64,000 nt of DNA, from the NCBI GenBank assembly GCA_020849855.1, contig JADZFO010000007.1, positions 1-64,000 of the forward strand, given 5' to 3'. The translations under genes and the position numbers were made by a program. The notes beneath the pieces were generated by a model. The model did not search any database. It worked only from the letters and a program-made list of their open reading frames with translations, and was not told the DNA's origin. Shown here piece by piece: positions 1,339 through 39,202 of the stretch (the stretch's first letter is position 1; each line of letters starts with the position of its first letter). Origin of the DNA: a bacterium. GTDB lineage: Bacteria > 4484-113 > JAFGCY01.

Positions 1339-3759
1339 GTGCTGAGCAGCGATATAGAGGAGCGCCCGGACGAGGAGCGGCCCGGCGAGGGGCATGAAGC
1401 GCCCCAGCGCAGCGCCGGACGCTACAAGCTGCCCCGGCGCGGCGGGGCCGACGAGGCCGGGAGCCTGCATGCCCAGTGGCGCGAGCGCCTGAAGGACAGC
1501 CTCAACCAGCAGCAGCTGGAGGCCGTCACGGCTCCGGCGGGCCCGGTGCTGGTCCTGGCGGGCGCCGGCAGCGGCAAGACCCGGGTCATTACCTACCGCG
1601 TGGCCTTCCTGGTCGGCGCGATGGGTGTACGGCCGCAGCAGATCCTGCTCACCACCTTCACCAACAAGGCCGCCCGCTCCATGCTGGACCGCGTGGAGCA
1701 GGTAGTGGGCGACAGCGCCCGCGCCGTCACCGGCGGCACCTTCCACCACGTCGCCAACCTGCTGCTGCGGCGGCACTGCGAACTGCTGGGCTACGACCGC
1801 AACTTCACCATCCTGGACGATTCAGACAGCCGGGCGGTGATGAAGCTCTCGCGCAATGAGGTGGGCCAGGTCTCGGTCGAGAAGGCCTTTCCCTCCGAGC
1901 GCCTGCTGCAGGACATCGCCTCGGCCGTGGTTAACACCCACACGCCCCTCGACCGCCTGCTGACCCGGCGCTACCCGCACCTGATGGAGTTCCACGATTC
2001 CATCCAGCGCGTGCTGATCGATTACCAGCTGCGCAAGGCCGGCGCCAACCAGATGGACTATGACGACCTGCTGGTCAACCTGCTGCGCCTGCTGGCCCCC
2101 GAGCTGCACGGCGCCAGCGCGGGCCTGCTGGGGCCGGAGGCGGATGCGCCACTGCCCCCCGGCGTGGCCCAGCGCGACCTTGACGCCGTGCGCCGCGAGA
2201 TCTGCGGCCGCTATACGCATATCCTGGTGGACGAGTACCAGGACGTGAACCATGTGCAGGCGGAGATTGTTCGACGCTTGTATCTTGGTGAGTCGCTGAG
2301 CGCAGAGCCGTCGGATGTCGGAAGTCGGAAGTCTGAACTGGCAGGACCCGACTCCACGGACACTGCCGACGGCGGATTTGTTGATCTGGATGTCTCAGCG
2401 TCCGGATTCAACACCCCACAGCTCTCAGCCGATTCCGACCTCCGACCTCCGACCTCCGACGACCTTAGACTCTTAAGCACTGACTCCACGCGCGGTCTGT
2501 TCGTAGTGGGCGACGACGCCCAGAGCATCTACTCTTTCCGCGGCGCGGACTACAACAACATCCGCTCTTTCCCGGACCGCTTCACCGACGGGCATGTCTT
2601 CAAACTGGAGATCAACTACCGCTCCACTCCCCAGGTGCTGGAGCTGGCCAACGCCATCCTGCAGGACGGCGACCCGCTCTTCCGCAAGACCCTGCGCCCG
2701 GTCAAGCCCGCCGGCGCCGAGCGCCCCCTGCTGCTGGCCTGCCGCGACGGCGGCGAGCAGGCCGAGTTCGTCGCCGAGCAGATCCTCTCCCTGCGCGAGG
2801 ACGCCGGGCTGAAGCTGCATGAGATGGCCGTGCTTTACCGCGCGCACAACAACCGCCTCGAGGTGGAGCTGGAGCTGACCAAGCGCCGCATCCCCTTTGT
2901 GGTGCGCGGCGGCCTGCGCTTCTTTGAGCAGGCGCACATCAAGGACCTGCTCAGCTATGTCGTGGTAATGGCCAACAGCCGCGACGAGATCGCCTGGCAG
3001 CGCATGCTGGGCATGATCAACCGCGTCGGCCCCAAGACCATCGCGGATGTGCTGGTCAAGCTGCGCGGCCCGCGCGGACGCTTCGGCCGCACAGAGGATG
3101 ACGAGTACGGCGGGCCCCTGGGGCGCTTCACCATGAATGGCGTGGCGGACTCCGCCCGCGGCCAGGCCAAAACCGGCCTGATGGAGCTGCGTGATTTCCT
3201 GCGCGGCCTGCGCGATGAGCAGCTCGCCGGGACCCTGCCGGCCTCCGACCTGCTGCGGCGCGTGCTGACCGAGCGCTACCACGCCTACCTTGAAGTCACC
3301 TATGACAACTGGCGCCAGCGCCTCGAGGACCTTGAGCAGCTCATCGTCTTCGCCTCGCGCTTTGATTCCCTCGCCGGCTTCCTGTCGGAGATCGGCCTCT
3401 CCGGCTCCTTTACCGGCCAGGAGATCATCGACAGCGGAGATGTCGACGACCCCGAGGAAGGCGCGGTAACCCTCAGCACCATCCACCAGTCCAAGGGCCT
3501 CGAATGGCGCTCAGTCTTTGTGATCTCTGTGCAGGACGATGTCATCCCGCACCGCATGACCCGCGCCAACCCGGAGGAAGAGGACGAGGAGCGCCGCCTG
3601 CTGTATGTCGCCGTGACCCGGGCCGAGGAGATGCTCTTCATGAGCTACCCCCAGGTCACCGAGACCCGCGACTTCCAGCGCATCATCAACCGCGTCAGCC
3701 GCTTCCTGCACGACCTGCCCGGCAAGCCTTATGACGAAGCCGTGCTGGAGTGGGGGTAG
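1339..3759 (+). CDS. UvrD/PcrA-family superfamily 1 DNA helicase
   Basis: ATP-dependent 3'-5' DNA helicase of the UvrD/PcrA/Rep family, acting in excision repair and fork maintenance. An N-terminal basic tail (about 45 residues) is followed by the Q motif LNQQQLEAV, Walker A GAGSGKT (about residue 75), TFTNKAA, motif II DEYQD (about 298), motif III GDDAQSIYSFRGAD (about 391), NYRS, TIHQSKGLEW (motif V region) and VAVTRAE (motif VI). All catalytic motifs are present. Residues about 317-383, between motifs II and III, form a Ser/Asp-rich insertion not expected in this family; its DNA holds inverted short-word repeats (see separate entry). The GTG start lies six bases after a TAAGAT box, so the mRNA may be leaderless. 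The assignment to SF1A helicase is certain; the choice among PcrA, UvrD and Rep is not. Confidence 0.95.
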   Translation: MLSSDIEERPDEERPGEGHEAPQRSAGRYKLPRRGGADEAGSLHAQWRERLKDSLNQQQLEAVTAPAGPVLVLAGAGSGKTRVITYRVAFLVGAMGVRPQQILLTTFTNKAARSMLDRVEQVVGDSARAVTGGTFHHVANLLLRRHCELLGYDRNFTILDDSDSRAVMKLSRNEVGQVSVEKAFPSERLLQDIASAVVNTHTPLDRLLTRRYPHLMEFHDSIQRVLIDYQLRKAGANQMDYDDLLVNLLRLLAPELHGASAGLLGPEADAPLPPGVAQRDLDAVRREICGRYTHILVDEYQDVNHVQAEIVRRLYLGESLSAEPSDVGSRKSELAGPDSTDTADGGFVDLDVSASGFNTPQLSADSDLRPPTSDDLRLLSTDSTRGLFVVGDDAQSIYSFRGADYNNIRSFPDRFTDGHVFKLEINYRSTPQVLELANAILQDGDPLFRKTLRPVKPAGAERPLLLACRDGGEQAEFVAEQILSLREDAGLKLHEMAVLYRAHNNRLEVELELTKRRIPFVVRGGLRFFEQAHIKDLLSYVVVMANSRDEIAWQRMLGMINRVGPKTIADVLVKLRGPRGRFGRTEDDEYGGPLGRFTMNGVADSARGQAKTGLMELRDFLRGLRDEQLAGTLPASDLLRRVLTERYHAYLEVTYDNWRQRLEDLEQLIVFASRFDSLAGFLSEIGLSGSFTGQEIIDSGDVDDPEEGAVTLSTIHQSKGLEWRSVFVISVQDDVIPHRMTRANPEEEDEERRLLYVAVTRAEEMLFMSYPQVTETRDFQRIINRVSRFLHDLPGKPYDEAVLEWG
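2293..2490. repeat. In-frame short-word inverted-repeat insertion inside the helicase gene
   Basis: Left arm 2310-2334 is a run of GTCGGA(A/T) words. Right arm 2435-2462 is a run of CCGACCT words. Read in reverse complement the right arm matches the left at about 21 of 24 positions, so the mRNA could fold into a long hairpin with a loop of about 100 nt. The segment encodes about 65 residues of low complexity between helicase motifs II and III and keeps the frame open. Confidence 0.7.
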
Positions 3760-6842: not shown

Positions 6843-8078
6843 ATGGTCAGATACAAGGAACGCCACAAGCTGGAGCAGGCGGCCCAGCGCATCGTCGCTG
6901 AGAACCAGCTCGCCAGCGACCGCTTCAGCCCGATGCAGTTCCCGCGCGACCTCGAGGAGGCGCTGGCGGGCAAGACCGTGCTGGTCACCGGCGGCACCGG
7001 CTCCATCGGCCGCGAGATCGTGCAGCAGGTCCTGGGTTACGGCCCGCGGGTGGTGCGCGTCTTCTCCCGCAACGAGTACAACCAGTACGCCATGCGCCAG
7101 GAGCTCGGCGAGCGCCCGGACCTGCGCTTCCTGCTGGGCGATGTGCGCGACCGCGAGCGCCTGATGCGCGCCTGCGAGGATGTCGAGGTGGTCTTCCACG
7201 CCGCCGCCCTCAAGCACGTCGACATCTGCGAGTACAACCCCTTCGAGGCCGTCAAGACCAACGTGGTCGGCACCCAGAACGTGGTCGAGGCCGCGCTGGA
7301 CTACAACATGGAGCTGGTCGTCGGCATCTCCACCGACAAGGCCGTCAGCCCCACCAACACCATGGGCGCCACCAAGCTTTTGGCCGAGCGCGAGATCCTC
7401 TCCGCCAGCCGCTACAAGGGCGACCGCCGCACGCGCTTTGCCGTGATCCGCTTTGGCAACGTGCTGGCCAGCCGCGGCAGCGCAATCCCGCTCTTTGTGC
7501 GCCAGATCCGCGATGGCGGCCCGGTGACCCTGACGCATCCCCAGATGCGGCGCTTCTTCATGTCGATCCCCCAGGCCGTCGAGCTGGCCCTGACCGCCAG
7601 CCTGGATTCCCGCGGCGGCGAGATCTTCATCCTCAAGATGCCGGTGCTGGCCATCGGCGACCTGATCGAGGCGCTGATCCGCATCTATGCCCCGCGCTTT
7701 GGCCGCAAGGCCAGCGATGTGCCGGTTCAGACCATCGGGCTGAAGCCCGGCGAGAAGCTCTACGAGGCCCTGATGACGCCCGAGGAGGCCCTGCACAGCG
7801 CCGAGGCCGCGGACTACTTCAAGGTCCAGCCCTGGCAGCCGGTGGCCGCCGAGCGCCTGGCCCTGCTGGCGGACAGCCAGGGCAGCGCGGCCAGCTGGGC
7901 CGCCGGCGATGGCCACAGCGCCGCCGCCGGGCAGCCCGCATCCGCCGCGCAGCAGGACCTGCTGGCCAGCGGCTATGACAGCGCGGACCAGCCCCTGCTG
8001 AGCGTCGAGGAGATCATCGAGCTGCTGGAGAGCCGCAACCTGGTGGCGGCCTTCGAGCGCGCCGCGATGGAACTCTAG
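6843..8078 (+). CDS. UDP-GlcNAc 4,6-dehydratase-type sugar-nucleotide enzyme (CapD/WbpM/PseB family)
   Basis: SDR-superfamily nucleotide-sugar dehydratase that removes water from UDP-GlcNAc in polysaccharide or nonulosonic-acid synthesis. After a 40-residue N-terminal extension come the Rossmann motif TGGTGSIGRE, HAAALKHVD, NVVGTQNV, the STDKAVSPTN segment and MGATK. In this family the catalytic triad is S-Y-K in PseB/FlaA1 and S-M-K in WbpM/CapD; here Met occupies the Tyr position, so it is the S-M-K type. Unlike WbpM there is no membrane domain, and the length is 411 residues. The C-terminal tail is Ala/Ser/Gln-rich. No other glycan genes adjoin it, though an RmlA-like gene lies at 25399. 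Soluble cytoplasmic enzyme; product assignment (pseudaminic acid, LPS or capsule sugar) is open. Confidence 0.9.
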   Translation: MVRYKERHKLEQAAQRIVAENQLASDRFSPMQFPRDLEEALAGKTVLVTGGTGSIGREIVQQVLGYGPRVVRVFSRNEYNQYAMRQELGERPDLRFLLGDVRDRERLMRACEDVEVVFHAAALKHVDICEYNPFEAVKTNVVGTQNVVEAALDYNMELVVGISTDKAVSPTNTMGATKLLAEREILSASRYKGDRRTRFAVIRFGNVLASRGSAIPLFVRQIRDGGPVTLTHPQMRRFFMSIPQAVELALTASLDSRGGEIFILKMPVLAIGDLIEALIRIYAPRFGRKASDVPVQTIGLKPGEKLYEALMTPEEALHSAEAADYFKVQPWQPVAAERLALLADSQGSAASWAAGDGHSAAAGQPASAAQQDLLASGYDSADQPLLSVEEIIELLESRNLVAAFERAAMEL

Positions 8079-8097
8079 CCGCTGCGGCCGGCGAGGC

Positions 8098-8607
8098 TCA
8101 GTCTTTGAACCAGCGCTCCCAGATGCCCCACTTCAGCTCATCGCTGGGCGCAAAGCCGCTTTGCTTCAGGGCCAGCAGTATCTGCCCGCGGTGGTGGCTC
8201 TCATGGCTGATCAGATAGGCCATAAACACCGTCGGCGGGTGGCCGCGGATCAGGCCTTCCTTGCCTTCACCTCCGGCGGTCAGTGCCGCGCTGATGCGCG
8301 CCTCGACGGCCACAGCACTGGCGGCCAGCGCCGCCTTCAGCTCGGCGCGCTGCGGCTCGGCGCCCTTGTCAAACTCCGGCAGCGCGGCCAGCAGCTTCTT
8401 CTCCGCCGCGCGCAGATGGCTCAGCCGCACTTCATGCAGGTGCAGCCAGTTGCGCGCCACGCTGCGCCCGCTGGAGGGCTTGCCGCTCTTCAGCAGCGGG
8501 ACTGCCGCGAAGCCCGGCTGAGGGATCCGCTCCAGCATGTACTGGTTGATCGCCTCATGCCGGCGCCAGGGCGCCAGCACAGCTTCGATCTGCTGCCAGG
8601 AACACAT
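8098..8607 (-). CDS. DinB-like four-helix metal-binding family protein
   Basis: A 169-residue protein of the DinB/YfiT-like fold. The C-terminal signature SHESHHRGQI, together with HLHEVR near the middle, supplies the conserved His ligands of a divalent metal site. Members include thiol-dependent transferases and many proteins of unknown function. The ATG at 8607 is preceded by TAAGAT six bases upstream on the minus strand, with no ribosome-binding site, so the mRNA may be leaderless. It is divergent from the arsenate-reductase-like gene at 8691. Substrate unknown. Confidence 0.8.
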   Translation of the reverse strand: MCSWQQIEAVLAPWRRHEAINQYMLERIPQPGFAAVPLLKSGKPSSGRSVARNWLHLHEVRLSHLRAAEKKLLAALPEFDKGAEPQRAELKAALAASAVAVEARISAALTAGGEGKEGLIRGHPPTVFMAYLISHESHHRGQILLALKQSGFAPSDELKWGIWERWFKD

Positions 8608-23114: not shown

Positions 23115-23206
23115 CGGCCCTGAACCTCGTTTCGCCCTTCGCCTTTCGCCTTTGGTCTTTGCCTTTCGCCTTTTCGCCTTGAGCCTTGAGCCTTGTGCCT
23201 TTCGTC
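23115..23206. repeat. Short-word repeat tract (TTTCGCC / GCCTT words)
   Basis: Quasi-tandem words CCTTTCGCC, CCTTTGG, GCCTTGA and GCCTTGTG fill about 90 bp between two convergent genes and abut the stop codon of the lipoprotein at 23207. The words are imperfect and of varied length, unlike a simple microsatellite. Confidence 0.75.
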
Positions 23207-25336
23207 TTAATCGAGAGGGTTATAAATCTGGATCAGGCGGTTCTGCTCACTGACGATGTAGGCGCTCTCAACTCCCAGCGCAAAGGAGGAGAAATAGAAG
23301 GTGTTCTCCCCATCCGCCTCGCGGCTGTCGCTCAGCACCGGGTTGCTGCCCAGGACCGGCGGCTGGCCATAGTCAAGGCTGGCCAGCCAGATCACGCCAT
23401 CGGTATCCGCGATGTAGATCCGCCCGTCCTTGTCCACCGCGGCCCGGCTGTTCACGTCGCCGCTGCCCAGGCTGAGCGTCCAGAAGGGCCCGCTGATCTC
23501 CGGGCTGATGCCGCTGGTGTCAACCGTCACACCGCGCAGCTCGGAGAAGTCCGTCTCGCTGCCGTCCGTGGGCACCGGCTGGACGATGTAGTCCGAATCG
23601 CTGACCCGCGAGGGCCCCGCGACGACCGCGCCGCCCAGGTTATAGCTGTCCTCGCGCAGCCCGGTGCTGGAGTTGATCAGCAGCAGCTGCCCGCTTTCGG
23701 GATAGATGAAAAGCTCGTCGGCCAGCACGCAGCCCCCGGCCAGGTTCAGCGGGGTGCCCAGGTCGCGGTAGCTGGAGTCGGGCAGCTCGGCGCCCGTTAT
23801 CTGGCTCAGGCTGATGCAGTGCTCGACAAAGCCGATGGAGAAGCCGTCAAAGGTGCAGGGCCAGCACAGGGCCCCGTTGTCCGCGTTGAAGGCCGGCTCG
23901 GCGTTAAGGCGGATCGAGCTGTTCAGCGCGCTGTTCTTCCAGGCCTGGCCTCCGTCCTGGTTCAGGGCCATGGGGTGGGCCTGGCCGTCGGCGGTGCAGA
24001 CCAGCACTCCCGCCGGGGCGATGTTCAGCGAGCTGTAAGGCCGGGCGTTCTCGTCCTTCAGGGCGCCCAGGCTGGCCTGGAACTTCAGCGCGCCGGCTGG
24101 CGTGACCCCGAAAAGATAGCCCGTGGACACCGCGGAATTCTTCTGCGCCACCACGAAGTAGGCATTGCCAAGGCTGTCCAGGCAGGGGGCCTGCGGCGGG
24201 CAGACAAAGCTCTTGCCTTCAGGGGCATAGGCATTGCTGTCAAAGCTGTAGCGCAGGCTGACCAGGTCGCTGCTGTAGCTGCGCAGCAGGCCGTCGCGGC
24301 TGAGGGCATAGACATTGCCCTGGCCGTCAATGACCGGCGAGGTACGGTTCGGGCCGTCAGTGCTGCTGGAAAGCAGGACAGAGTTAAAGCCGTCCAGGTT
24401 GGCCGGGCCGCTGCGACTTGTCGTGGTGCCCGAGCCATCCACGCTGCCGCTCATGCGCGGCCACAGCCCCTGCGCCAGCTTGAACTCGGCCGGCAGGCCG
24501 CCGGACGGCGTGGCGCTGGACAGGGCGCTGTAGGCGCTCGAGCCGTCCACATTGCGCGCCTTGAGGGCGAAGAAGTACAGCTCGCCGTTCTGCAGTCCTT
24601 CTATGTTCCACTGCGTGGCCGTCTTGTCCAGGCTCTGGCTCAGCACGGCATTGCTCATGTCAATGCTGCTGCTGTAGAAAACATCAATGCTGTCGGCGCG
24701 GCTGTCGGGATAGCTGTCCCAGCTCAGCTCGGCGCTGCCGTCGCCGGCCAGTGCGCTCAGGCCGCCGGGCGGCGGCAGGGGGGTCAGGTTCTCGACGCGC
24801 AGCTCGGCATGGTTGTAAAGCACAAAGCCGCCGTCGGTGACGATGGCGAAGTAGAAGTAGCCCTGCGGGCTGATATAGCGCGAGGCGCCGTCCCCGAAGC
24901 TGTGGCTGAAGCCGGCAAAGCGCGCCCCGCCGACAGGCGCCCAGCGCTGCTGCTCCCAGTCGCCGAAGTACAGAAAGTAGTCGTTCTGCAGGTCGGTGAT
25001 GAAGAGCTCCAGCTCAGTCAGGCTGTAGCTGGGGGTGAAGGGGCCCACCTGGTAAAGCGCATAGCCCAGGCGGCCCAGGGCGGCCGTGATGGTCAGGTTG
25101 GGCGGGTTGCTGTCAATTCCCAGGCTGGCGTCCGCAAAATCGGCGCTGGGAATGCTGGTCACTTCCTGCAGGGACACGCTGCGGCCGGCCGTGTCAGGGG
25201 CGGCATCCAGCCGGGCCAGGGCAGGCAGTCCGCCGCTGTGTCCTGCAGCCTCCGGGCCGGGAACAGCAGTCCCGCAGGCGCTGAGCACAAGCACTGCCGC
25301 GAGCAGCAGAGCTGCCCGCCAGCGGCCATGGCGCAT
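23207..25336 (-). CDS. Lipoprotein with unnamed domain, Fn3 and PQQ-like propeller repeats
   Basis: A 709-residue lipoprotein. The ATG at 25336 follows GGAACGGAC; an ATG six codons upstream is possible. Lipobox LSAC. Residues about 80-182 hold the same unnamed domain as the lipoprotein at 4209-5486 (YALYQV, YFLYFGDWEQQRW, GYFYFAIVTDGG). An Fn3-like domain follows (PPPGGLSALAGDGSAELSWD, in part; YFFALKARNVDGSS). The C-terminal half has PQQ/quinoprotein-like blades (GNVYALSRDGLLRSY, GRIYIADTDGVIWLA). Probably an exported binding or structural protein. No catalytic residues recognised. Divergent from the rmlA-like gene. Confidence 0.75.
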   Translation of the reverse strand: MRHGRWRAALLLAAVLVLSACGTAVPGPEAAGHSGGLPALARLDAAPDTAGRSVSLQEVTSIPSADFADASLGIDSNPPNLTITAALGRLGYALYQVGPFTPSYSLTELELFITDLQNDYFLYFGDWEQQRWAPVGGARFAGFSHSFGDGASRYISPQGYFYFAIVTDGGFVLYNHAELRVENLTPLPPPGGLSALAGDGSAELSWDSYPDSRADSIDVFYSSSIDMSNAVLSQSLDKTATQWNIEGLQNGELYFFALKARNVDGSSAYSALSSATPSGGLPAEFKLAQGLWPRMSGSVDGSGTTTSRSGPANLDGFNSVLLSSSTDGPNRTSPVIDGQGNVYALSRDGLLRSYSSDLVSLRYSFDSNAYAPEGKSFVCPPQAPCLDSLGNAYFVVAQKNSAVSTGYLFGVTPAGALKFQASLGALKDENARPYSSLNIAPAGVLVCTADGQAHPMALNQDGGQAWKNSALNSSIRLNAEPAFNADNGALCWPCTFDGFSIGFVEHCISLSQITGAELPDSSYRDLGTPLNLAGGCVLADELFIYPESGQLLLINSSTGLREDSYNLGGAVVAGPSRVSDSDYIVQPVPTDGSETDFSELRGVTVDTSGISPEISGPFWTLSLGSGDVNSRAAVDKDGRIYIADTDGVIWLASLDYGQPPVLGSNPVLSDSREADGENTFYFSSFALGVESAYIVSEQNRLIQIYNPLD

Positions 25337-28168: not shown

Positions 28169-28702
28169 ATGGAGCAGCGGGAGATTTGTGAGATGAGCGC
28201 ATCGGTAATCGATAACCTCTTTGGCCAGCTGGCAGAGCAGCTTGAGCTGCTGCTCAGCCTGCGCGACCTGGGCCTGCAGAAGCAGGACGCCCTGGTCCGC
28301 TGCCGCCTCGACCAGCTCCAGGGCCTGTCGGAGCGCGAGATCCAGCTCAGCGGCCAGCTGGCCGAGATGGAGGCCCGCCGCCTCAACGCCATCGCCGGCG
28401 TTGCCGCCGAGGGCCTCTTCAGCGAAGGGCCGGAGCCGGACGGCGAAACCCTGGCCCGCCTGATCCAGCGCCTGCCCCTGGTGGAGCAGCCGCGCTTCAT
28501 CAAGCTGCTGCCTGAGTTCAGCGCTGTGACCCGCGAGCTGTCCAGGATCCGCGAGCACAACGAGGCCCTGACTCTCAACCTGCTGGACTACACCGGCATG
28601 GTGATGCGGCTTCTGACCTCCGACGGCCCGGCCAGCCACTACGGCGCCAGCGGCGTGCTGCAGGAGCGCCCCGGCCGCGCCATGCTGGACAGCCGGGTTT
28701 AG
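28169..28702 (+). CDS. flgN: Flagellar export chaperone FlgN-like protein
   Basis: A 177-residue helical protein that should bind FlgK and FlgL before export through the flagellar type III system. The ATG at 28169 follows GGAGGAG; a second ATG two codons earlier is possible. Long amphipathic helices (LFGQLAEQLELLLSLRDLGL, ALVRCRLDQLQGLSEREIQL, LSRIREHNEALTLNLL) and the C-terminal YTG motif fit FlgN. Assignment rests on helices plus position between flgM and flgK. Its stop codon overlaps the left inverted repeat of the four-helix element. Confidence 0.8.
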   Translation: MEQREICEMSASVIDNLFGQLAEQLELLLSLRDLGLQKQDALVRCRLDQLQGLSEREIQLSGQLAEMEARRLNAIAGVAAEGLFSEGPEPDGETLARLIQRLPLVEQPRFIKLLPEFSAVTRELSRIREHNEALTLNLLDYTGMVMRLLTSDGPASHYGASGVLQERPGRAMLDSRV

Positions 28703-29275
28703 GTTACAGGGAACAGGTTACAGGGGACAGGGGAAAGGTTAGAGGTGTGGGAGATTGAAGGCGGGAAGAGAAGCGCGCGCTCCGCAGTATTCCGGCTCAG
28801 CTCAGGATTCTCTTCCTAAGGGCAGTCAGCATCTTGCTGATCTCTACTATCAGGTCAAGCGAGCCGCGTACATCAGCATTGCTCACATATCCCAGTTTGA
28901 CTCCCAGCAGGGCGAAGGTCTCTGTCTCCATTAACGAACCTTTGGCCATTGCCAGGAAATGAGCAAAGTCCTTCCGTGTTGACCTCGCATGTCCTTCGGC
29001 AATGTTGGCCGGAACCGCGGCGGCAGCACGCGTAATCTGGTCAGTCAGCCTGTACATCTCCTGTCTCGGAAAATTTGCGGATAGTTCGTAGATTGCCACC
29101 GTCAGGTCCATAGCTTTTTGCCAAACGATCAGATCGCGATGCGACTCGATTTTCATTCCGTATCCTCACTCAGAGCCTAATAATATCATATACAGTCAAT
29201 AAATGTAATCAACAACTGACTGCAAGGCTCCCTTCAGTCTTATCTGTCACCTGTGCCCTGTCCACTGTAACCTCG
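28702..29275. mobile_element. 0.57-kb element: Avd/S23-like gene between 30-bp inverted repeats
   Basis: Left arm 28702-28731 is built of AGGTTACAG and GGACAG words. Right arm 29245-29274 is its inverse; the two match at about 25 of 30 positions. Between them lies one minus-strand gene for a four-helix bundle protein. The element separates flgN from flgK, which normally adjoin. No target-site duplication or transposase was seen. Confidence 0.6.
28797..29156 (-). CDS. Four-helix bundle protein (S23/IVP family, Avd-like)
   Basis: A 119-residue protein of the family found in 23S rRNA intervening sequences and, as Avd, in diversity-generating retroelements. Signature features: MKIESHRDLIVWQKAMDL, RQEMYRLTDQITRAA (in part), VPANIAEGHAR, DFAHFLAMAKGSL-E, LRKRI. 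Basic helices suit nucleic-acid binding; Avd is a pentamer that binds reverse transcriptase and template RNA. No reverse transcriptase or template/variable repeat is in the window, so this is an orphan. It is antisense to the flagellar operon and flanked by inverted short-word repeats. Confidence 0.9.
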   Translation of the reverse strand: MKIESHRDLIVWQKAMDLTVAIYELSANFPRQEMYRLTDQITRAAAAVPANIAEGHARSTRKDFAHFLAMAKGSLMETETFALLGVKLGYVSNADVRGSLDLIVEISKMLTALRKRILS

Positions 29276-38593: not shown

Positions 38594-39202
38594 ATGACAG
38601 TGCGGAAGGATGAGCGCGGAGTGCGGAATCTATGCCAGAGCGAGCACGGCCAGGGCGAGCATGGTCAGGGCGAGCTTGGCCCGCGTGAGCATGGTCAGGG
38701 CGAGCCTGCGAGCCCGGACGGCCTGCTGCCCACGGCTACACACTTGAAGCACACAGCAAGTCAGGCTCAGCGCTCAGCACACAGCACCCAGCACTCAGCA
38801 CTCACATTTCGTCTAACTTCCCGCCGTGGAATCACCCTGCTGGAGCTGGCCATCGTGCTGGCGATTGTCGGCGTCATCGTCTTCATTGCCATCCCGACCA
38901 TGAACCCCAGCAAGGATGAGGCCACCATTGACCTGGCCAAGGAACTGCTGGCCTATGTGCACTCCCAGGAGCAGAAGTACTACGGCATGCACGGCGTCTA
39001 TGCGCCGCTGAGCGCGCTGGCCAGCGACCCGCAGCTTGGCGAGCAGTTCGACCAGCGCTTCGCCGGCGACAAGCCGGAGGTGAACGGCATCAGCTTCCTC
39101 GGCCCGCAGGCTGAAAGCCAGTTCTACGAGATCATCGCCGTGCTGCCGGACGGCTCGCGCTACAGCGTCAATTCCACCGGCGAGATCCGGGCCCTGCAGT
39201 AA
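38594..39202 (+). CDS. Prepilin-like protein with a repeat-derived N-terminal extension
   Basis: The prepilin part is clear: SRRG then ITLLELAIVLAIVGVIVFIAIP, with Glu at +5, and a 95-residue periplasmic domain (HSQEQKYYGMHGVYAPLSAL). The open frame extends upstream to ATG 38594, giving a leader of about 75 residues, far longer than usual (6-25). Those extra residues (SEHGQGEHGQGE, then THLKHTAS, AQRSAHSTQHSA) come from short-word repeat DNA. Either a downstream non-ATG start such as the TTG in HLKH is used, or the repeat has displaced the true start. Unlike the paralogues at 159-1156 the body is divergent. Confidence 0.7.
   Translation: MTVRKDERGVRNLCQSEHGQGEHGQGELGPREHGQGEPASPDGLLPTATHLKHTASQAQRSAHSTQHSALTFRLTSRRGITLLELAIVLAIVGVIVFIAIPTMNPSKDEATIDLAKELLAYVHSQEQKYYGMHGVYAPLSALASDPQLGEQFDQRFAGDKPEVNGISFLGPQAESQFYEIIAVLPDGSRYSVNSTGEIRALQ
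38638..38815. repeat. Short-word repeat tract (15-mer GAGCATGGTCAGGGC, then CAGCACTCAG words)
   Basis: Four to five copies of a 15-bp unit near 38640-38712, then CAGCACTCAG/CACACAGCAC words near 38750-38810. It overlaps the 5' part of the prepilin-like reading frame and keeps it open. Confidence 0.8.

Follow-up and report, generated by a model that had tools for sequence, protein, structure and literature searches.

Tandem repeats of 7 nt occur in cyanobacteria as the STRR, and heptanucleotide repeats have reportedly been treated in a paper on Xanthomonas and Nostoc. The TAACTGA repeats of Beggiatoaceae, which are of the same kind, are described in the available part of their source as direct and mostly intergenic (PMC4679880). 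Palindromic elements of about 100-150 bp, dispersed through the genome and lying in frame in unrelated housekeeping genes, are described for Rickettsia in the accessible text of another report (PMC10969869). The intervening sequence (IVS) of 23S rRNA in Coxiella, according to the accessible portion of PMC4990558, has a terminal inverted repeat of 28 bp with heptamers upstream of its gene, and the origin of such IVS was still called unclear there more than 25 years after their discovery. Here, we compare with these systems a hairpin that lies in frame in a helicase gene of the window, that is, the whole stretch of 64,000 nucleotides that was analysed. The features of this gene are as follows.

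1339-3759, + strand: UvrD/PcrA-like helicase gene, 806 aa (open reading frame; Pfam PF00580 and PF13361; PDB relatives PcrA and UvrD1)
2293-2490, + strand: additional stretch separating motif II from motif III, some 66 aa above the usual 27 (motif spacing; AlphaFold residues 322-382 with pLDDT below 50)
2310-2337, + strand: left arm, heptamers GTCGGAT GTCGGAA GTCGGAA GTCTGAA (repeat and array search)
2338-2433, + strand: hairpin loop, about 97 nt (own-genome search, with matches to the arms and their edges only)
2434-2460, + strand: right arm, TCCGACN four times (TCCGACC), an inverted copy of the left-arm word (repeat and array search)

The helicase reading frame was identified by its UvrD-helicase and UvrD_C profile matches and by matches to PcrA/UvrD structures on either side of a gap. 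The spacing between motif II (DEYQD) and motif III (GDDAQSI) was 93 aa, compared with 27 in 58 of the 66 UvrD-like proteins in which it was measurable and 30-38 in four; 110 loci were tried, and at the other 44 the motif pattern or an open frame was not found. The excess of the window helicase is thus 66 aa (198 nt). A search for homologues gave a match in 52 of 60 genomes. In the measurable genomes of the same order and class the spacing was 27, and a long segment was present at this site in all four genomes of the same taxonomic family (G000-G003), with spacings of 92, 93, 131 and 195, that of 93 belonging to the source genome, G000. The original prediction of about 65 extra residues where the UvrD/PcrA family has none therefore holds for the family at large and fails for the nearest relatives. 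The alignment of homologues that it proposed likewise revealed no conserved loop of similar sequence, although a long loop of unrelated sequence runs throughout the taxonomic family.

The motif II-III segments of the four family helicases could not be aligned and shared no conserved sequence. The segment of G002 bears a run of hexamers as well as a 24-bp hairpin in duplicate, and parts of this sequence turn up again at other places of that genome (21 further matches); a hexamer run was also found in the segment of G003, and that of G001 had no evident array. Since the loop is long in all four and unlike in sequence, the site appears to be insert-tolerant and to have been filled differently by different lineages. 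At another locus of G002, which represents a sister genus (C26:81931-87392, within L288), there are inverted arms of the 6-nt words CAGAAT/CAGAAG, the same kind of hexamer as in its helicase loop. An AlphaFold model of the window helicase (24-sequence alignment, mean pLDDT 81.1) gave pLDDT values below 50 for residues 322-382 and 78-95 for the flanking blocks, and the segment is predicted to be a disordered, hydrophilic surface loop. It could be argued from the presence of a long loop in all four family members that it has a regulatory or interaction function in the helicase, the repeats in it being incidental. However, the four loops have no conserved sequence, the segment is predicted to be disordered and the loop of G002 holds that lineage's own dispersed repeats, so we regard such a function as extremely improbable. 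The window helicase also has a second extra stretch of 26 residues (2095-2187, aa 253-283), which is rich in Ala, Leu and Pro, is absent from the helicases of the three family relatives and has no evident arms.

Within the extra segment, 28 of 34 bases pair between 2309-2342 and 2428-2461. The top 28-nt inverted match in the helicase gene scored 24, compared with at most 21 in 100 codon-shuffled copies, and the predicted RNA fold of the insert had a z value of -2.91, with none of 200 shuffles as low. The inverted GTCGGAA-type and CCGACCT-type arms that had been noticed at first sight were thus recovered as four words each, paired above the level of codon shuffles, and each arm has four tandem words within the range of 6-9 nt. 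The distance from arm to arm, 151 nt, is shorter than the excess of 198 nt, indicating that the hairpin lies within a longer loop. As had also been stated, the insert leaves the frame open and is flanked by the motifs on either side. The window gave no Rfam match and the Pfam matches included no intein domain, so that neither a self-splicing intron nor an intein is indicated.

The word of these arms is dispersed through the source genome. When arrays were defined as at least three tandem units of GTCGGA, up to one mismatch being allowed, 45 were found in 808,926 bases, compared with 4 on the reversed sequence; this sample consists of the whole contigs C7, C38, C50 and C5, the greater part of C46 and sections of seven further contigs and was picked for holding hits. 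Exactly four units made up 26 of the 45 arrays, and the innermost unit, read from the outside inwards, was GTCTGA in 19 of the 45, compared with 2 of the 147 other units. We count this shared innermost unit as a probable sign of common descent of the arrays. Eleven full inverted pairs, with a GTCGGA left arm and its inverse as the right arm, were read by eye; their loops differed, similarity between copies being confined to the arms. The strict three-unit word occurred 35 times in the source genome and not once in the 143 others that were searched. For words of any sequence, period 7 gave 79 arrays and 20 inverted pairs, compared with 0-19 arrays and no inverted pairs for periods 5, 6 and 8-12, although direct orientation was also seen, in 11 pairs of period 7, which counts against the reading given below. 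Tandem Repeats Finder reported 89 period-7 rows, compared with none in one codon-wise shuffle. Elsewhere in the window, there is a period-7 array of TTTCGCC/GCCTTGA words at 23130-23208, matching the arm word of a gene-bearing element (described below) at C38:30968, and an array of CTCAGCA in the same style at 38748-38804. A region of contig C38 (110676-114474, within L154) has four hairpins of about three word families in or beside nuo genes.

From the same sample, 30 gene-less hairpins were merged, of which 22 were entered by hand (pairs read by eye and Tandem Repeats Finder results) and the rest came from the period scan. Eleven of the 30 occupy positions within the open frames of nine conserved genes that were identified with NCBIfam or Pfam: UvrC (two), acetoacetate-CoA ligase, MurB, Mu portal protein, MutL (two), TrmD, LipA, MnmG and the window helicase. 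In MurB it is the portion following the insert that is covered by the profile match, the preceding portion being MurB-like by eye, and a twelfth candidate, WecB, was left out of the count because its hairpin precedes the domain. The insert in TrmD was absent in all eight relatives with a match (nine searched), which are about 44-61% alike in protein; the net difference was 42 aa in seven of them and 41 in one, corresponding to an arm-to-arm length of 126 nt (8015-8140). The AlphaFold model of TrmD was weak (mean pLDDT 69), and nothing was taken from it beyond the low confidence of residues 110-145. By eye, no target-site duplication was seen in the hairpin flanks, the TrmD comparison being limited to relatives of this similarity, and no transposition event was observed.

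A reading without any element, in which the segment is a fast-evolving disordered linker whose heptamers were gained by replication slippage, would be in keeping with the long unalignable segments of all four family members and with the loop of G001, which has no evident array; the abundance of heptamers has indeed been ascribed to polymerase slippage in the accessible text of PMC4679880. Slippage, however, produces arrays in direct orientation and does not give inverted pairs that share an inner unit, and arms of the same build are present at a further ten sites in frame as well as between genes, with a clean empty site in TrmD. We thus consider this explanation unlikely.

Among the other 19 hairpins, the flanks were resolved at six, where named, different genes stood on the two sides (e.g. 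nuoA/nuoB and folE/folP); the same gene family on both sides was found at none of the 19, and at the six resolved sites no conserved gene was split out of frame. Because an open frame was a condition in the search for the in-frame cases, the lack of out-of-frame cases rests on these six sites. Furthermore, one GTCCTGA unit reads GTCCTGG or GTCCCGA in the inserts of MutL and acetoacetate-CoA ligase, and by our reading of these two cases the altered unit appears to be the one whose TGA would be in frame. The retention of the frame in conserved genes, with no out-of-frame split at the resolved sites, fits translation with selection on the frame and not removal from the mRNA.

This bears on the suggestion, made in the original prediction, that the insert is removed or cut at the RNA level; in such a reading the hairpin would be cut out, or cut by RNase III as in the IVS of 23S rRNA. 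The strong predicted RNA hairpin is consistent with such processing, as are the Coxiella IVS, with its 28-bp terminal stem and heptamers, which is cut by RNase III (PMC4990558, in the portion available), and the fact that PF05635, to which we return below, is the protein family of the 23S IVS. Against it, the RNA ends left by the cutting of an IVS are not ligated, so that an mRNA would be destroyed in this way, and the frame is kept with no stop in this insert and the ten others. Removal of the insert would free frame and stops to vary; with no out-of-frame case at the 6 resolved sites of 19, this part of the prediction was not borne out, and we judge RNA-level processing quite improbable. The other part, an intervening-sequence-like insert that is tolerated as a loop, fared better, as the segment is predicted to be disordered and lies in frame like ten similar hairpins in conserved genes.

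A larger element of the same build is present in the same window.

28701-28746, + strand: left arm of the gene-bearing element, AGGTTACAGG words, period 7 (array and flank comparison)
28797-29156, - strand: PF05635 gene between the arms, 119 aa (23S rRNA IVP/S23/Avd-like four-helix bundle; profile match)
29244-29273, + strand: right arm of that element, an inverted form of the left arm (flank comparison)

The likeness in build between the helicase insert and this Avd-type element, likewise claimed beforehand, is borne out by the inverted period-7 arms around the gene at 28701-29273. The four family genomes have 17 PF05635 genes, seven of them in the source genome, and all 17 had an inverted 28-nt flank match of at least 20 (15 of at least 22), mostly of period 7, with arm words that mostly differ among the elements. 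When 26 PF05635 genes from other bacterial families were added, inverted arms (at least 22) were found around 30 of the 43, compared with 3 of 406 control windows taken at helicase loci, and arms in direct orientation were found around 2 of the 43; the 13 misses include four loci (L232, L239, L243 and L250) that are cut by contig ends and at which the fixed flank positions may be wrong. Among the 34 genes reaching at least 20, the arm period was 7 in 28, 8 in three and 9 in three, and the arms mostly had four to five units. On named plasmids, all 12 fetched PF05635 records (of 41 matching) had inverted arms with scores of 22-27, the period being 7 except in two records, where it was 8, although the elements of the Gemmatirosa and Pseudanabaena plasmids scored 26 in direct orientation as well. 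The genome G017 has 19 PF05635 matches, many of them short, in opposite-strand pairs less than 200 bp apart, an arrangement unlike the others.

The helicase insert has no PF05635/S23 gene inside. GTCGGAN arms were found on none of the seven PF05635 genes of the source genome, and the strict word was found in none of the 143 other genomes; the helicase word family is therefore linked to PF05635 by build only. The words of five of the seven gene-bearing elements of the source genome recur at gene-less places of the sample, including the inserts of the Mu portal protein and MutL, although a control with reversed words (GTCCTGA at 12 places, AAGGCTC at 4) makes the sharing less clear for these two words. 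Across the 41 elements with clear arms, protein identity was correlated with arm-word similarity (Mantel r 0.236, 2 of 5000 permutations), driven by 16 pairs above 60% identity, of which half share the word at 0.75 or more, compared with about 5% or less in the lower bands. The PF05635 element of the window and that of plasmid pANA02 of the cyanobacterium Anabaena sp. 90 were 69% alike in protein and had an arm-word similarity of 0.90. These comparisons show arm words travelling with the PF05635 gene. In Anabaena sp. 90 pANA02 (L327), Pseudanabaena (L337) and Picosynechococcus (L331), PF05635 elements lie between CRISPR genes, the neighbours being cas6 and cas4 in two of these cyanobacteria and cas10 with a cmr3-like gene in the third. 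23S IVP is named in a figure legend on CRISPR-linked genes in the accessible part of PMC10910872, and such elements are perhaps the reason for that entry.

Another conceivable mover is the Y1 (RAYT) transposase, the insert being then an element of the REP/REPIN type. Y1 transposases need no target duplication, and the source genome has nine Y1_Tnp matches. However, at 15 of 16 Y1 loci in eight genomes the period-7 score was at most 14 on both sides, many having short palindromes instead, and heptad arms accompany PF05635 genes and not Y1_Tnp; the two kinds of hairpin thus seem to be tied to different genes. We rejected Y1 as the mover because at the 16 loci the gene flanks share no palindrome with the insert, and give this origin very little credence. 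A reverse transcriptase (PF00078) was found once each in G001, G114 and G095 and not in the source genome (94% complete), G002, G003, G069 or G062. A retro route within the source genome was accordingly rejected, and a diversity-generating retroelement is unsupported there.

Taken together, the helicase insert is best read as a gene-less relative of the PF05635 hairpin element, similar in behaviour to the Rickettsia palindromic elements, and we consider it probable that it is a translated and tolerated member of a dispersed family of hairpin elements. Such an element consists of two inverted arms, each of about four tandem degenerate short words (usually of 7 nt; here GTCGGAN), around an unrelated loop, and would here have settled, in frame, where the helicases of this bacterial family already had a long loop. 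The insert would be transcribed and translated with the rest of the gene, without removal, to give a hydrophilic disordered surface segment. In the gene-bearing members of the same build, the gene between the arms encodes a PF05635 four-helix bundle; the arms may serve as recognition ends, PF05635 proteins, or a host factor with them, may mobilise the elements, and the small gene-less copies could either move in trans or be derivatives by internal deletion. A role of PF05635 in the mobility of the hairpin elements is possible, yet we hold it more doubtful than not. The sequences themselves establish the build and dispersal of the elements, the restriction of the word to this lineage, the kept frame, the empty site in TrmD, the arms around PF05635 genes and the words they share, whereas translation, tolerance, mobility and the part played by PF05635 are inferences from them.

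More generally, and tentatively, with a confidence that falls a little short of even, we propose that PF05635 genes across bacteria could be the protein-coding form of an unrecognised class of mobile hairpins with inverted ends of about four words of 6-9 nt, in which the word varies by element and accompanies the gene from one phylum to another, and of which gene-less copies enter essential genes in frame. Special cases of this class would be the 23S rRNA IVS and, perhaps, some of the cyanobacterial heptamer repeats. The larger elements with a small PF05635 gene represent a new lead on the source of such inserts, and heptad-arm elements may supply one reason for the excess of heptamers in many genomes. 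In-frame palindromic inserts in essential genes, described for Rickettsia, are met here in a lineage unrelated to it; their build is different and their density high (two in MutL).

Compared with known systems, the gene-less hairpins resemble MITEs in being short, dispersed and bounded by terminal inverted repeats, and differ in their variable loops and tandem-word arms, with no target-site duplication seen and no transposase-bearing parent found. To our knowledge, inverted word arms are not part of the description of diversity-generating retroelements, and the source genome has no reverse transcriptase match; Avd of these retroelements shares with PF05635 its fold family, according to the accessible text of PMC10053308. 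With the heptanucleotide arrays of cyanobacteria, Beggiatoaceae, Xanthomonas and Nostoc the elements have multicopy tandem words of 7 nt in common, whereas the available portion of the TAACTGA report gives no description of inverted arms around a gene (PMC4679880). Like the Rickettsia elements, the hairpins are palindromic, of similar size and in frame in unrelated genes; unlike them, they have arms of 7-nt tandem words that differ between families, unrelated loops and PF05635 gene-bearing relatives, whereas each Rickettsia family has a conserved peptide. The insert works like a Rickettsia palindromic element; as neither a conserved element sequence nor a conserved peptide of that type runs across the copies, it is not classed as one. 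In the literature searched, in which subscription papers are incompletely covered, no description of inverted word arms around PF05635 genes was found beyond the Coxiella IVS. The gene-bearing members resemble the 23S rRNA IVS with its S23p/IVP gene in having a PF05635-type gene inside a hairpin, and the elements described here differ from it in lying in protein genes and between genes and not in 23S helices, from which the IVS is excised without ligation. The 23S rRNA of the source genome is of about normal length with no period-7 array, and that of G067 gave a weak period-7 score of 13.3. Given the stem and heptamers of the Coxiella IVS, we propose that the IVS may be a branch of the same class, and in the link between the hairpins and PF05635 we see a specific candidate to explain how the intervening sequences of 23S rRNA arose and move.
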